From contig JAGWBJ010000003.1 in NCBI GenBank assembly GCA_021295955.1, positions 1-64,000 of the forward strand: DNA of 64,000 nucleotides. Direction: 5' to 3'. The translations under genes were made by a program, and so were the position numbers. Source of the stretch: Dehalococcoidia bacterium. GTDB taxonomy: Bacteria > Chloroflexota > Dehalococcoidia > Lucifugimonadales > JAGWBF01. The notes under the pieces are model-generated. The model worked only from the letters and a program-made list of their open reading frames with translations, was not told the DNA's origin and made no database searches. Position 1 is the stretch's first letter. Every line of letters starts with the position of its first letter. Below, piece by piece: positions 49,691 to 57,718 of the stretch.

Positions 49691-49869
49691 GTCAGGAAGT
49701 TGAGTCTACACCTGCCTCGGTGGCTAGGCGACCGGGTTGCCCATGAGGAATGACCCGGTTCCGGACATGAAGTATAATCTCCGTACGTACCAAGACGAGG
49801 CCGGCAACAGTGACCGGCTCCGCGGAACGGACCCGAGGGGCGGTCCACTCAGGTGACAGGAGGACTTCG

Positions 49870-50784
49870 ATGAGACGGCTCACCAAGGACAAGCATATCT
49901 ACGACCTGGACCCCGACGCGCCGCCGGCCATAACCATCGAGTCCGGCGAGGAGCTGATAGTGGAGACCTGGGACGTGTTCCAGGGCCTCCAGGACTCGGA
50001 GTCCATCCACCAGAGATTCGAGCTGGGACCCGACCCGTCGGCCCTTCCCATACCGGCTACGGGCCCTATCTACGTGCGGGACGCCATGCCCGGCGATGCG
50101 CTGAAGATCGACTTCATACGCATCACACCCATTGATCACGCCATCCAGCGGCAGAGGCCGGGCAGCGGTTACCTGGACGAGGATTTCCGGGACATACACG
50201 TGACCCTCATGCCCATCGAAGGCGACCACCTGGTGTTCCCCGGCGGCATCCGGATACCCCTTAGCCCGGACATGGGGATGGTGGCCACCACCCCCACCTA
50301 CGTGCTGCACCCCTCGGGGCGCATCGGCCCCCATGGCGGGGACATAGACTTGCACGACCTGGGTGAGGGGACGACCCTCCATCTTCCGGTATTCGTGCCG
50401 GGAGGCCTGCTGGTAATGGGCGATGGCCACGCGGCTGCGGGCGAGGCCACCATGGCCGGGACAGCGGCGGAGGCGCAGCTGGAGGTACACATTCGAGTTA
50501 CCCTGGAGAAGGGGCGTAACCTGAAGTCCCCACGGGCGTTGACGCGGAGCGACTTCGTCATCCTGGGCCACGACAAGAACGACGGAGACCTGACCGAGTG
50601 CCTGACCCGTGCCGTGAGGGAGATGCTGGACGTACTGGTGGGCGAGAAGGGCATGGAGCCCAACGACGCCTACGCCCTGCTGAGCGTGGCTGGGGCCGTG
50701 GTCGGTCCGGCGTCGAACCGCCGGCTGTACATGAGCTCTCCCAAGGTTACCCTCGACCGCCAGGTCTACGAGCAGCTTGGATAG
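49870..50784 (+). CDS. Acetamidase/formamidase family protein
   Basis: GDALKIDFIRITP, GGDIDLHDLGEGTTLHLPVFVPGGLLVMGDGHAAAGEATMAGTAAE; AGGAGG RBS; TATAAT at 49773-49778. Confidence 0.9.
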   Translation: MRRLTKDKHIYDLDPDAPPAITIESGEELIVETWDVFQGLQDSESIHQRFELGPDPSALPIPATGPIYVRDAMPGDALKIDFIRITPIDHAIQRQRPGSGYLDEDFRDIHVTLMPIEGDHLVFPGGIRIPLSPDMGMVATTPTYVLHPSGRIGPHGGDIDLHDLGEGTTLHLPVFVPGGLLVMGDGHAAAGEATMAGTAAEAQLEVHIRVTLEKGRNLKSPRALTRSDFVILGHDKNDGDLTECLTRAVREMLDVLVGEKGMEPNDAYALLSVAGAVVGPASNRRLYMSSPKVTLDRQVYEQLG

Positions 50785-50845
50785 CCGGAGGAGAGTTGGG
50801 CGGCGGGGTCGGCGGCATTAGCAACGAGAAAAAGGAGAGTGCATC

Positions 50846-51235
50846 ATGGCGCAAAAGACGGTGATCAGGCCGCCCGGGTTGCCCGATTCGGGCAGTCCTC
50901 TTTCCCGGGCCATTCGGGCGGGGGACTTCGTGTTCGTCTCGGGCACGCCGGCCAGCCCCAACCCGGCAACGGGCGAGCTCGACCCGGACATCCGGGCCCA
51001 GGTGCGGAGCTGTCTGGAGACCATCGATACCATCCTGCAAGAGGCCGGTACGTCCCTGAGCAACGTGGTCGCCGTCACGTCGTACCTCACCGACGCCGGC
51101 TATTTCGCCGCCTATAACGAGGAGTACCGCAGGTTCTTTCCCAGCGACTACCCGTCGCGTACGACCGTCAAGGCGGAGCTGATGAGGCCCGAGATGTTGG
51201 TGGAGATCACCGTCACGGCCGTCGTGCCGTCCTAG
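50846..51235 (+). CDS. RidA family protein
   Basis: PLSRAIRAGDFVFVSGTPASPNPATGELDPDIRAQVRSCLETIDTILQEAGTSLSNVVAVTSYLTD...PSRTTVKAELMRPEMLVEITVTAV. Confidence 0.93.
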   Translation: MAQKTVIRPPGLPDSGSPLSRAIRAGDFVFVSGTPASPNPATGELDPDIRAQVRSCLETIDTILQEAGTSLSNVVAVTSYLTDAGYFAAYNEEYRRFFPSDYPSRTTVKAELMRPEMLVEITVTAVVPS

Positions 51236-53106: not shown

Positions 53107-54171
53107 TCAGTCCAATATCGGGACAGTCGCCGCTCGAGTGGTGGACCAGGTGGGGAGCCACGCCGAGTGCCTCCCGTCGCCGCCCGCGACCACTATCAGT
53201 ATGTTCCGGGGTGAGGACACGGGAGGGACCATGTAGGCGTCGTCGTGCTCGTTGACCCAGGTGGGCCAGGTGCGGCTGGACCAGTAGCCCCGGCCCCGGA
53301 GACGGCCAACCGGTATCCGGGCGTTCTCCATCACGTAGGCCTTGACGTCGTCCTTGCTGAACCCGTCCTCGTACATCTCCTGGGCGTGCTCGGGCCCGAT
53401 GACCAGGAGCATGTGAGTCTCGCGGCCAATGACGTAGTGGCCCATGTTGCCGGGACTCACCAGGGAGCTGCATATGGTGTCCAGGACGTCCCGGCCCGAT
53501 GTAACGGTCATGTCGCTGATCTGGTGGAATCCCGTGACGCCGACGACGGTGACGGTGCTGGTCCCCGCGGGGTAGCCCCGCTCCACGGGCAGGGAGGCCC
53601 ACGGGCTGCGGCCCTCGTTCTCGGCGATGCACATGGTGTACTTGCCGGGATGACCCAGGGTCGACTTGTCCGTCACTCCCGGTATCGCGTCCCCTATGTT
53701 GCGCATGACGAGGCGGAGGGCCCTGCCTATGGTAGCGTTGGCCCGGTAGCCGTGGCCGAAGACCCCAGTGTCGGAGTTGACCTGCAGCCGGGTGGCTGCC
53801 TGGCCGTTGACGATCACCAGCGGGGCCGCGCCTCCGGTGGTGGACTGGATGCCGCCGACGTTGAACCCCTCGGTGCAGACGCCCTGCACGGCTGCCAGGA
53901 CCACCGGGAAGTAGCTGGGGTCACATCCCGCCATGACGGCGTTGATGGCGACCTTCTCGACGGTGGCGGTGCCATCGCCGGGAGGGAAGCGCCCCAGGAC
54001 CTCCGACGGGTCTCGCTCGGAGCCTCGGAGCATCTCGAGGACGCGGTCCTCTGAGGGGGGCACGATGGGCAAACCGTCGGTCCAGCCGCGCTGGTAGTAC
54101 AGGTCGTTTATGGCTTCCGTGGAGGCCGATACCTGGAGCCGCCGCGACCTCAGCTGTGGGTTGGACGACAT
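53107..54171 (-). CDS. Conserved protein of unknown function, translationally coupled to the UGSC selenoprotein
   Basis: INDLYYQRGWTDGLPIVPPSEDRVLEML...; start overlaps the selenoprotein stop by 1 nt (TGATG). Confidence 0.75.
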   Translation of the reverse strand: MSSNPQLRSRRLQVSASTEAINDLYYQRGWTDGLPIVPPSEDRVLEMLRGSERDPSEVLGRFPPGDGTATVEKVAINAVMAGCDPSYFPVVLAAVQGVCTEGFNVGGIQSTTGGAAPLVIVNGQAATRLQVNSDTGVFGHGYRANATIGRALRLVMRNIGDAIPGVTDKSTLGHPGKYTMCIAENEGRSPWASLPVERGYPAGTSTVTVVGVTGFHQISDMTVTSGRDVLDTICSSLVSPGNMGHYVIGRETHMLLVIGPEHAQEMYEDGFSKDDVKAYVMENARIPVGRLRGRGYWSSRTWPTWVNEHDDAYMVPPVSSPRNILIVVAGGDGRHSAWLPTWSTTRAATVPILD

Positions 54172-54719
54172 CAGGAGGAGGGTCCGCCGGTGAGGGACCG
54201 GACGATGTCTGGCAGGGCTCCCAGCGCCATCTCCGCGATGTCGTCCGGTTTCTTGCTGGCTATGGGGTGGCCTATCACCACAACGGGATGGGCCGGCATC
54301 CCCAGGGTCTCACCCCTGAGCCGGGCCAGGCGGGTGAAGGCGCTGGTAATCACCGTTGCCGCGGGAACGCCCCTCTTCTCGGTCTCTATTCCGTCGTGGA
54401 GACCCCACGACGTGCAGGACCCTCAATCGGCCACCGCGTGGACCACCGCGTCGCACGGGGCGGAGACCTCGTCGATCAGGTCGGGCGGGGCCGGGGTGTT
54501 GGCGTTAGCCTTGCGGCGGTACACGACCTGGGAGACGCCGTACCGGTCTCGTAAGAGGGCTTCGATGTTTTCGAGGAACACGTCGGAGTTGTGCTTGGTG
54601 TTGTCCACCAGCCCGATGGTGGTCCCCTGCAGCGAGGCCAGCCGGGCCGCCAGGGCGTGCTCCTCGGGTACGTCCTCGGCGGATGGGTCCAGCAGGGTCA
54701 CCGTTTCGCTCGCCGTCAT
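54171..54719 (-). CDS. UGSC family selenoprotein (182 aa including Sec at in-frame TGA 54423-54425)
   Basis: MTASETVTLLDPSAEDVPEEHALAARLASLQGTTIGLVDNTKHNSDVFLENIEALLRDRYGVSQVVYRRKANANTPAPPDLIDEVSAPCDAVVHAVAD-U-GSCTSWGLHDGIETEKRGVPAATVITSAFTRLARLRGETLGMPAHPVVVIGHPIASKKPDDIAEMALGALPDIVRSLTGGPSS; AAGGAGG RBS. Confidence 0.9.
54392..54425 (-). promoter_or_regulatory. Bacterial SECIS-like element immediately downstream of the Sec UGA
   Basis: UGA-GGGUCCUGCA-CGUCGUGG-GGUCU-CCACGACG: 8-bp perfect stem, 5-nt GGUCU loop, 10 nt after UGA. Confidence 0.85.
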
Positions 54720-54782
54720 GACCGGGCCTCCTTGTAATCTGGGGAGTCTGGCGGACTCTGGGCCGCCGAAGCGGTTGGGCCG

Positions 54783-54828: not shown

Positions 54829-55779
54829 TTAGGCCTCCAGCGCCCGCCGCTTCTCGTCGTCCCTTGCCCGGCAGGCGGCGGACCTGCGTAGAACATCCTT
54901 GGCCCACTCGTCCACGGGCACGTCGATCATCCTGCCGGCGAAAGGCACCGCTGCCGTGCCTGCCGCCACGGCCTGGGCGAACACCTCCCTGACCTGGGCA
55001 TAGTACTCCACCAGCTCCGGGGCGGGCGTCATGGCCGCGTTGACCGGCTCCACCCACGAGGAGTCGCGGCACAGCACACCCTTGAACCCCATGTTCCTGC
55101 CGTCCGTGGCCAGCTTGAAGACCTCATCCCGGCCGGGGTCCGTTGCGACCAGATCCAGGGGACGGGCGATGCCCACCGGCTGGACTCCGGCGTGGGTGGC
55201 TTCTATGATCATTCGACCCCTGGCGAACTCCAGCGGGTCATGGCTGGTGGAGGGCCAGACCCCTATGTCCGCGCAGAAGTCCGTCTCTCCCAGGCCGACC
55301 TGGGTCACCCGCGGGTCCGAGCTGACGATCTCCCGAACGTTCCACACCCCCAGGGCCGATCCCAGGAGCACTATGATCTCCAGGGCGCCCTCCCTGATGC
55401 CCCGGCGTCCCTCCATCTCCCGCAGGCCCCGGGCGGCGGCTGCCACGTCCCGCGCCGTCCTGACCTTGGGCAGCACTATGCCCGAGACGCCCTCCCATAT
55501 GCCCGCCTCCAGGTCCGCGTGGAGGAAGGGGGGGTTGACCCGCAGGAACACCTCCGAGGCGGCTGCGGCCGCCCTGGGAATGGCCTCGCGAACGGCGGCC
55601 CGGGCCTCGGCCTTCCGGGACTCCGGCACCCCGTCCTCCAGGTCCAGGGTCACCGCGTCCGGATGACTGTCCCAGGCGCCCTTGGCCGGCGCCAGGAACG
55701 CCTGGCCCCCTCCATCGGTCAGGGGTACGATCAGGTTGGAGCGGCGGACGAAGTCCAGGGTGTATTCCGGACGTGGCAT
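54829..55779 (-). CDS. HpcH/HpaI (CitE-like) CoA ester lyase
   Basis: MPRPEYTLDFVRRSNLIVPLTDG...DAVTLDLEDGVPESRKAEAR, FLRVNPPF, VGLGETDFCADIGVWP. Confidence 0.9.
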   Translation of the reverse strand: MPRPEYTLDFVRRSNLIVPLTDGGGQAFLAPAKGAWDSHPDAVTLDLEDGVPESRKAEARAAVREAIPRAAAAASEVFLRVNPPFLHADLEAGIWEGVSGIVLPKVRTARDVAAAARGLREMEGRRGIREGALEIIVLLGSALGVWNVREIVSSDPRVTQVGLGETDFCADIGVWPSTSHDPLEFARGRMIIEATHAGVQPVGIARPLDLVATDPGRDEVFKLATDGRNMGFKGVLCRDSSWVEPVNAAMTPAPELVEYYAQVREVFAQAVAAGTAAVPFAGRMIDVPVDEWAKDVLRRSAACRARDDEKRRALEA

Positions 55780-56732
55780 CAGGTGGACTCCCCGGGCTCT
55801 TCCGCGGTCTTGGTGCGCGAGACCGCCTCGGCCTTCTCCCGGTCTCGCTCGGCGCAAGCCTCGGCCCACTCCAGGAGCTCCCGGGCCTTCCGTGTCTCGT
55901 ACTTATCGACCACCCTCCCGTTTACCTCTTCCCAGGTCTTGCCGTGGGACACCAGCCGCCGGTAGGCCTCCAGCACGCTACGGGCGTCCTCCACCTCTTC
56001 GGGTGGCGGGGTCAGCCCGCGTATCTGGGGCTCCACCACGTTGGGATGGAGGCCGCTGCCGTGGCGGAGGCCGCACCTTCTGGCAATGTCCGCCTCCTGG
56101 AAGGCGCGATCGGGGTCGCTGACGCTGCCCGTGGTGTTGGCGACGAAGGGCATGTTGGTCGGCTCAAGGCCTAGCGCCCGGGCGGCGAGCTCCAGCTCCC
56201 CCTTGCTGTATACGAACTGGTCGAACCCCACGAACATCTCGATGCCCAGGTCTCGGGACATGTCGTAGCCTGTCCCTCCTCCCAGGTCTACGATGCGGGG
56301 GCTGGCGGCGGCCATCTCGTACCCGTTGACCACACCCGTCGCCGTCTCGATGTTGGCCCCTATCTGCACGGTGCCAGGCCTGATGCCCCGCTCCCTCTCC
56401 AGGCGGGTGATGATCCGGTCCAGCTTCCGGACCTCCTCGGCCGTTTCGGCCTTGGGATAGTTGACACGGTCGAGGCCGGGCCAGACGATGGCCTCCAGGT
56501 CCGCTTGGACGTAGTCGTGGTTGATTCGCGTGAACACCTCGGCCCCGCCCTTGGAGACCTTGCCGATGGCTTCCTTCACCAGGGTCCTGGCGTGAGGCTT
56601 TCGCCATTCGGGGACCGAGTCCTCCAGGTCCAGGTTTATGTAGTCGCAAGCTCTGGTCCACGCCCGGTCCACGAACCGCGGCGTGTTCACTGGCATGGTC
56701 AATCCGGAACGGCGGACGGCTCTATTGGTCAT
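55779..56732 (-). CDS. HpcH/HpaI (CitE-like) family protein, second paralogue
   Basis: TMPVNTPRFVDRAWTRACDYINLDLEDSVPEWRKPHAR, FTRINHDYVQADLEAIVWPGLDRVNYPK, GANIETATGVVNGYEMAAASPRIVDLGGGTGYDMSRDLGIE. Confidence 0.9.
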   Translation of the reverse strand: MTNRAVRRSGLTMPVNTPRFVDRAWTRACDYINLDLEDSVPEWRKPHARTLVKEAIGKVSKGGAEVFTRINHDYVQADLEAIVWPGLDRVNYPKAETAEEVRKLDRIITRLERERGIRPGTVQIGANIETATGVVNGYEMAAASPRIVDLGGGTGYDMSRDLGIEMFVGFDQFVYSKGELELAARALGLEPTNMPFVANTTGSVSDPDRAFQEADIARRCGLRHGSGLHPNVVEPQIRGLTPPPEEVEDARSVLEAYRRLVSHGKTWEEVNGRVVDKYETRKARELLEWAEACAERDREKAEAVSRTKTAEEPGEST

Positions 56733-57718
56733 GGGGCCCCGCCTTCCTCCTCGTCCTCCCTGGCCAGCTCGATGGCCCCGGCCTTGGCGTCGTCCCTGGC
56801 CGTGCAGGCCCGGGACCGGGCGATCAGCCCTCGGGCGGCCCTTGCCGTGGGCAGGTCCACGGTCCGGGTGCCCTGGTGCGCCAGGGCCTTGCCGTCACGC
56901 TTCGCCTGCTCCCAGGCCCGGACCGCGGCTTCGGCCTGGGCGACGTCCTCCGGGTCCGGAGCGTAGCCCAGGTTGAGCGCCTCCACCTGGTTGCTCCGCA
57001 GGCATATGGAGCCCCTGAAGCCGATGTCCCTTCCGCGCCGGGCGGCCTCCAGGGTATCCTCGGGCCCTGCCACGAGCCCCCGGGCCGGGGCCCTCCACCA
57101 CGCGCCCAGCGGCACCACGCCGGCCGCGTTGGCAGCGGCGATGAGGCGCTGCATCAGGTAGGGCATCATGTGGAGCTCCCCCGAGGGCTCCGGACGGAGG
57201 TCCATCTCCAAGTCGGCGCGGCCCAGGGTCAAGCCCCACACCCTCGGGCTTGCGCGGGCGATCTCCATGGCGTTGAAGTTGCCCAGGGCCGTCTCCAGCG
57301 CGGGCACCATCTGAAGGACGCCGGGCAGCAGGCCCCGCTCCTCCTCCATCTGCGACAGGAGGCGGTCCGCCTCCGCGGCTTCATCCGCCGACTCCAGCCT
57401 GACGACGACGCCGGCCAGGCCTCGGCATACCGAGGCCTGCAAGTCGGCGTAGAGGAGATCTTGGTCTGCGAGGAGGAATACCTCTGCGCCGCCCTTCGAG
57501 ACCGACTCCACGGCCTGCCTGGCCTCTTCTCTGGCGGCGGGCTTGTCCACCTCGGCCACCATCTCCGCCAGGTCGAGCAGGACCACGTCCGCTCCCCGGG
57601 TCCAGGCGTCCTCTATGGCGGCCTTGTCGGAAAGGGGCACCAGGAGCCAGGAGCGGCGAACGGCCTCGTCGCCGGAGAGGTCCCGGGACGGCGGGGACGT
57701 TATCCGCACCGGAGACAT
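56729..57718 (-). CDS. HpcH/HpaI (CitE-like) family protein, divergent third paralogue
   Basis: SWLLVPLSDKAAIEDAWTRGADVVLLDLAEMVAEVDKPAAREEARQAV..., VPALETALGNFNAMEIARASPRVWGLTLGRADLEMDL. Confidence 0.85.
   Translation of the reverse strand: MSPVRITSPPSRDLSGDEAVRRSWLLVPLSDKAAIEDAWTRGADVVLLDLAEMVAEVDKPAAREEARQAVESVSKGGAEVFLLADQDLLYADLQASVCRGLAGVVVRLESADEAAEADRLLSQMEEERGLLPGVLQMVPALETALGNFNAMEIARASPRVWGLTLGRADLEMDLRPEPSGELHMMPYLMQRLIAAANAAGVVPLGAWWRAPARGLVAGPEDTLEAARRGRDIGFRGSICLRSNQVEALNLGYAPDPEDVAQAEAAVRAWEQAKRDGKALAHQGTRTVDLPTARAARGLIARSRACTARDDAKAGAIELAREDEEEGGAP

Follow-up and report, generated by a model that had tools for sequence, protein, structure and literature searches.

The first 64,000 nucleotides of contig JAGWBJ010000003.1 (assembly GCA_021295955.1), from a Dehalococcoidia bacterium of the phylum Chloroflexota, are the window analysed here. 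Its minus strand carries a gene of the UGSC family in which a single in-frame TGA crosses a frame of 182 codons that stays open to its own stop codon (Table 1). When the TGA is read as selenocysteine (Sec, U), the product has 182 aa and contains ...CDAVVHAVAD-U-GSCTSWGLHDG..., with the codons TGA-GGG-TCC-TGC giving the motif U99-G-S-C102. An earlier note on this DNA had proposed a UGSC-family gene split by an in-frame UGA, and the reading frame bears this out. The last base of the UGSC stop codon is also the first base of the ATG of the next gene (TGATG, 1-nt overlap), which we call the partner gene. We conclude that the UGSC gene is a true Sec gene that belongs to a family known since 2007-2008, and we propose that its product and the partner probably form a two-component enzyme resembling GrdB, selenoprotein B of glycine, sarcosine, betaine and D-proline reductases.

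Table 1. Features of the UGSC locus (positions in the window)
Feature	Position	Strand	Remarks
UGSC-family selenoprotein gene	54171..54719	minus	182 codons including Sec99; start ATG at 54719; stop TGA at 54173-54171
In-frame TGA, Sec codon (Sec99) of U-G-S-C	54423..54425	minus	TGA at the same codon in 133/141 homologous domains
Shine-Dalgarno sequence AAGGAGG, 5' of the UGSC-gene ATG	54726..54732 (approximate)	minus	Read from the sequence
Predicted bacterial SECIS hairpin, CGUCGUGG-GGUCU-CCACGACG	54392..54412	minus	RNA fold; pair covariation in 131 relatives
Partner gene	53107..54171	minus	354 aa; overlaps the UGSC stop by 1 nt; no match to Pfam or NCBIfam models
Three tandem HpcH/HpaI-aldolase/citrate-lyase-beta-like genes	54829-55869, 55779-56732, 56729-57718	minus	Upstream of the UGSC gene

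The UGSC gene and its selenocysteine codon

Read through the TGA, the protein scored 147.3 bits against NF041046 (NCBIfam UGSC_fam; E=3.2e-43, curated cut-off 125) and 185.8 bits against PF24696 (Pfam UGSC; E=9.4e-55, cut-off 25), with the Sec codon in the [U/C]GSC motif. Both matches are far beyond chance and span nearly the full models, straight across the TGA, as expected from the proposed family assignment. The gene had been described as unannotated, which holds for generic open reading frame (ORF) callers only, because NCBI already has a curated model of the family. Such callers do truncate the gene at the TGA, but the smaller downstream ORF (54171..54353, 60 aa) starts with GTG and not, as had been assumed, at an internal Met. 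The parts of PMC2398784 that describe the family in ocean samples list 255 Sec and 21 cysteine (Cys) members, and the section on such selenoprotein families in a 2026 review (PMC13188914) calls their functions still largely uncharacterised.

Among 400 sampled genomes of the phylum, 42 contained PF24696, nearly always with exactly one internal TGA and in up to eight copies per genome. The genome studied here has three; the two further genes (L055, L056; G000:C20, C13) are also of the TGA type and come from different tree subfamilies. For comparison we combined the domains from a whole-genome search with those from public genomes, 141 in all. The UGSC position is TGA in 133 of them, Cys in five and another residue or none in three, in keeping with the expectation of Sec or Cys at this site and amounting to a preference for Sec over Cys of about 27 to 1. 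The Cys forms occupy at least four separate places in a tree otherwise almost wholly made up of Sec forms. Of 12 Sec-form genomes examined, 10 have a full SelB above cut-off and nine a tRNA-Sec scoring over 60 bits; the four Cys-form genomes, among them the haloarchaeon Natrialba asiatica, had neither. The nearest relative (65% identity) is encoded on a single-contig 3.4-Mb Dehalococcoidia chromosome with both SelB and tRNA-Sec; judged by such nearest matches, the host is probably a Dehalococcoidia-like Chloroflexota. Some paralogues have neither Sec nor Cys at the motif (TRSG, MGV; L112 8391-8885, L114 433-933) and are fused to the partner domain; they are possible non-redox or regulatory derivatives. 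Three UGSC genes (L178, L187, L210) stem from environmental metagenome-assembled genome records titled Bordetella parapertussis, a species label that looks doubtful.

The search for selA, selB, selC and selD advised in the earlier note retrieved all four from the assembly, the set expected of a bacterium with selenoproteins. SelA (530.5 bits), SelB (364.5 bits) and SelD (379.6 bits) are full-length and above their cut-offs, and the tRNA-Sec has the anticodon TCA (UCA in the RNA). SelD itself contains Sec, with one in-frame TGA in the sequence HCAGUAAK (L013 1501-2421; G000:C6:52470-53390). The machinery genes sit on contigs other than that of the window; in tetranucleotide profile their contigs correlate with the window at 0.98-0.99, and the foreign loci compared do so at no more than 0.91. 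Contamination is therefore an unlikely source of either side.

A hairpin just 3' of the UGA is likewise expected of a bacterial selenoprotein gene. The candidate selenocysteine insertion sequence (SECIS) has an 8-bp stem and a GGUCU loop, and its first base lies 10 nt after the UGA. The folding energy of this single sequence was not significant against plain dinucleotide shuffles (z -1.6). In 131 Sec-type relatives, the segment after the UGA exceeded in stability both its synonymous recodings (P about 5e-16) and segments elsewhere in those genes (P about 9e-9). A single spacing brings the stem pairs into register (6.6 of 8; no other spacing exceeds 4.6). Four of the pairs covary beyond all 1000 shuffles, and the one with the strongest signal is G-C in 71 sequences and C-G in 48. 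When valine is encoded by the eighth codon past the UGA, the third base of that codon is C with an upstream G in 35/39 cases and G with an upstream C in 29/29; the choice is synonymous and yet covaries (Fisher P 3e-15, kinship not corrected for). We regard this comparative evidence for a hairpin as strong and, judged from the sequences, Sec insertion at the TGA as near certain.

The partner gene and the neighbourhood

A member of the partner family lies within 1 kb of the UGSC domain and on the same strand, upstream or downstream, for 136 of the 141 domains, and 35 fusions of the two were verified. One of the two domain sets had been found with the partner as bait and is biased toward loci having it; the other, retrieved through PF24696 alone, is free of this bias and showed the same pairing. 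Since the partner adjoins UGSC or is fused to it, the functional unit is presumably a two-component protein. Eleven partner genes had no UGSC neighbour, several of them at contig ends and three in Poribacteria. The part of PMC2398784 that concerns domain fusions reports a domain 'Unknown_1' fused to UGSC (Figure S1A). Our partner family is very probably this domain.

The AlphaFold model of the partner has a mean predicted local distance difference test (pLDDT) score of 90.9 and no convincing fold match in the PDB. Sequence and fold searches of the PDB gave weak matches only, headed by a cyclic amide hydrolase (template modelling score, TM, <0.2), and these were not used; profile comparison found no homology of the partner to GrdB or to UGSC itself. 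Four polar residues of the partner are near-invariant (N145, R150 and E184 in 53/54 sequences each, D32 in 52/54), and its most conserved cysteines are present in only 44/54 and 39/54. This pattern would fit a catalytic or substrate-binding role better than dithiol exchange.

The HpcH/HpaI-like genes upstream are possibly in the same transcription unit as the UGSC gene. We surveyed 139 neighbour proteins of UGSC loci, which point to diverse organic-acid and coenzyme A (CoA)-linked catabolism; TctC receptors were the most frequent (7), and no constant third gene beside UGSC and partner was found among them. HpcH_HpaI was detected in two of the 139, probably window genes; the third copy in the window was assigned by eye. 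The many paralogues per genome, in such varied organic-acid catabolic surroundings, suggest substrate diversification. Also near the UGSC locus, at 49810-51235 of the window, are a formamidase/acetamidase-like ORF and then a RidA-like ORF, both recognised by eye.

Predicted fold and relationship to GrdB

The AlphaFold model of the UGSC protein (pLDDT 96) alternates strands and helices in the order b-a-b-a-b-a-b-a-b-a; Sec99 follows strand 91-97 and precedes helix 100-115. We take the domain to have a predicted alternating beta/alpha fold, its topology being deduced from the element order. A thioredoxin-like fold had been suggested for UGSC in 2008, and the literature, as far as covered here, grouped the family with thioredoxin-like selenoproteins. 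Neither the element order of the model, which is not that of thioredoxins with their mixed beta sheet, nor the Foldseek search supports such a fold. Searched against PDB sequences, UGSC gave weak matches, FtsZ and a designed protein among them, which were not used.

The motif region resembles GrdB (DAVILTATUGTCTRCGATMAKEIERAGIPT). In hhalign, UGSC matched the PF07355 (GrdB) sequences with 96.7% probability (E 4.4e-10), with Sec aligned on Sec and UGSC on UGTC. It reached 96.2% (E 2e-9) against the full-length GrdB set alone and 92.5% against the shorter relatives; the best of 30 column-shuffled controls gave 0.7%. An origin among aspartate/glutamate racemases was rejected, as that profile match (3.4%) was not significant. 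By these profile comparisons UGSC is distantly homologous to the C-terminal, Sec-bearing domain of GrdB; it is not a member of PF07355. The same genome also encodes a weak GrdB-family (PF07355) relative (L141; G000:C8:132790-133086) with no TGA in the matched stretch.

Proposed reaction and comparison with known systems

In GrdB and PrdB, Sec attacks next to a carbonyl group and a C-N bond is reductively cleaved. Our proposal for UGSC is modelled on this general chemistry, and we infer catalysis from sequence. UGA 99 is almost certainly decoded as Sec by SelB and tRNA-Sec(UCA), with the hairpin 10 nt downstream as the likely guide, and the UGSC protein and the product of the downstream gene would associate as a two-component enzyme. 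Both would contribute to a common substrate pocket, to which the partner may bring D32, N145, R150 and E184. The Sec99 selenolate would attack a small organic substrate at one of its carbon atoms, and reduction or cleavage of a C-X bond would leave an oxidised Sec. Cys102 may then resolve the oxidised Sec as a selenenyl-sulphide, which cellular thiols could recycle. We assign a probability of roughly 0.6 to this reading, a Sec-decoded selenoprotein that acts with its partner as a two-component GrdB-like enzyme with Sec99 as nucleophile.

Several observations weigh against it. The relationship to GrdB appears at profile level only, as a Pfam scan of the UGSC protein gave no PF07355 match at E<=1, and in the Foldseek comparison with the PDB the model had no close relative, leaving a fold with no solved-structure match. 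The partner profile scored 0.1% against a small, shallow set of PF09338 sequences (the pyruvoyl type of GrdE/PrdA), which is no homology; the pyruvoyl half of glycine and proline reductases is therefore missing. Around the UGSC copy on C13, no partner gene lies within about 5 kb. In four of the 141 homologues (L176, L178, L187, L207; UGSS, UGTS), Sec is kept and the resolving Cys is absent, so the latter is not universal. The neighbouring genes differ too much between loci to point to one substrate, and the assembly is a draft (30 contigs, 2.56 Mb, 88% complete, 7% contamination).

The strongest competitor, which we nevertheless consider unlikely, is a thioredoxin-like UxxC redox protein that acts by dithiol exchange with the partner. 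The UxxC motif is of a redox type, and the grouping with thioredoxin-like selenoproteins in the literature covered here favours it, but the predicted five-fold beta-alpha repeat is not that of thioredoxin, no thioredoxin appeared in the Foldseek top 50, the profile match of UGSC is to GrdB, and conservation in the partner is centred on polar residues rather than cysteines. Somewhat less probable still is a UGSC selenoprotein with another chemistry, such as metal or electrophile binding or a racemase- or lyase-type acid-base reaction through the selenolate. Domain homology is supported and the reaction is not, the neighbouring genes are diverse, and aspartate/glutamate racemases have a Cys whose strand-helix surroundings are broadly similar; on the other side stand the non-significant racemase match and the excess of Sec over Cys, which is the usual sign of a redox or nucleophilic need.

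That the TGA is a real stop, in a pseudogene, through a sequencing error or at the end of a truncated protein, is highly improbable. A generic gene caller does end the ORF there and the assembly is a draft, but coding conservation continues 3' of the TGA, the hairpin covaries at synonymous sites and the full Sec machinery is present. A sequencing error, which had been named as a possible refutation, is very unlikely because TGA recurs at this codon in the two paralogues and in more than 130 homologues from other genomes; homologues, hairpin and machinery together refute the stop for practical purposes. Genome-wide reassignment of UGA to another amino acid such as tryptophan keeps the frame open as well but is the least credible of all, since the UGSC gene itself terminates on TGA, the genome has a Sec tRNA with a UCA anticodon and the family position is Sec or Cys, never tryptophan.

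On the GrdB-like reading, the 'unknown redox protein' becomes a two-subunit enzyme that can be tested and whose catalytic residue is specified, owing to a near-obligate partner that lacks any family model and to a remote but specific relationship to GrdB. More tentatively, and with the odds somewhat against it, UGSC and its partner may constitute an unrecognised, widespread class of Sec-dependent enzymes. A GrdB-type Sec domain would have been recruited to a substrate-binding subunit of possibly new fold and diversified to up to eight paralogues per genome. The enzymes would reductively open C-X bonds in organic acids from the environment, also in lineages that are not known to have amino-acid reductases. 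Selenium-dependent reductive catabolism would extend well beyond fermenting Clostridia if the reaction does resemble that of GrdB.

The candidate SECIS hairpin, the near-obligate partner and the relationship to GrdB go beyond the earlier note. To the known family this adds an almost universal partner, a different predicted fold and the connection to GrdB, none of which appeared in the passages covered here of openly accessible papers that mention UGSC. The gene is otherwise a plain member of the UGSC family (NF041046/PF24696; the 'UGSC-containing protein' of marine metagenome selenoproteomes, PMC2398784), sharing its sequence, motif, Sec codon and link to an Unknown_1-type partner; nothing essential differs, apart from a host genome that is new and has three paralogues. 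As in the UGSC/Unknown_1 fusion in the relevant part of that paper, UGSC is joined to a second conserved domain, but here the pairing is near universal. With thioredoxin-like selenoproteins UGSC has the UxxC motif in common and differs in predicted fold and profile matches. With the C-terminal domain of GrdB (PF07355) it shares the strand-U-x-x-C-helix element (UGTC in GrdB), a subsequent strand of the E-x(2)-G-I-P type and a late H-P element, and both are encoded beside a separate partner subunit; in contrast to GrdB, UGSC has no counterpart of the N-terminal half, and its partner is not GrdE/PF09338.
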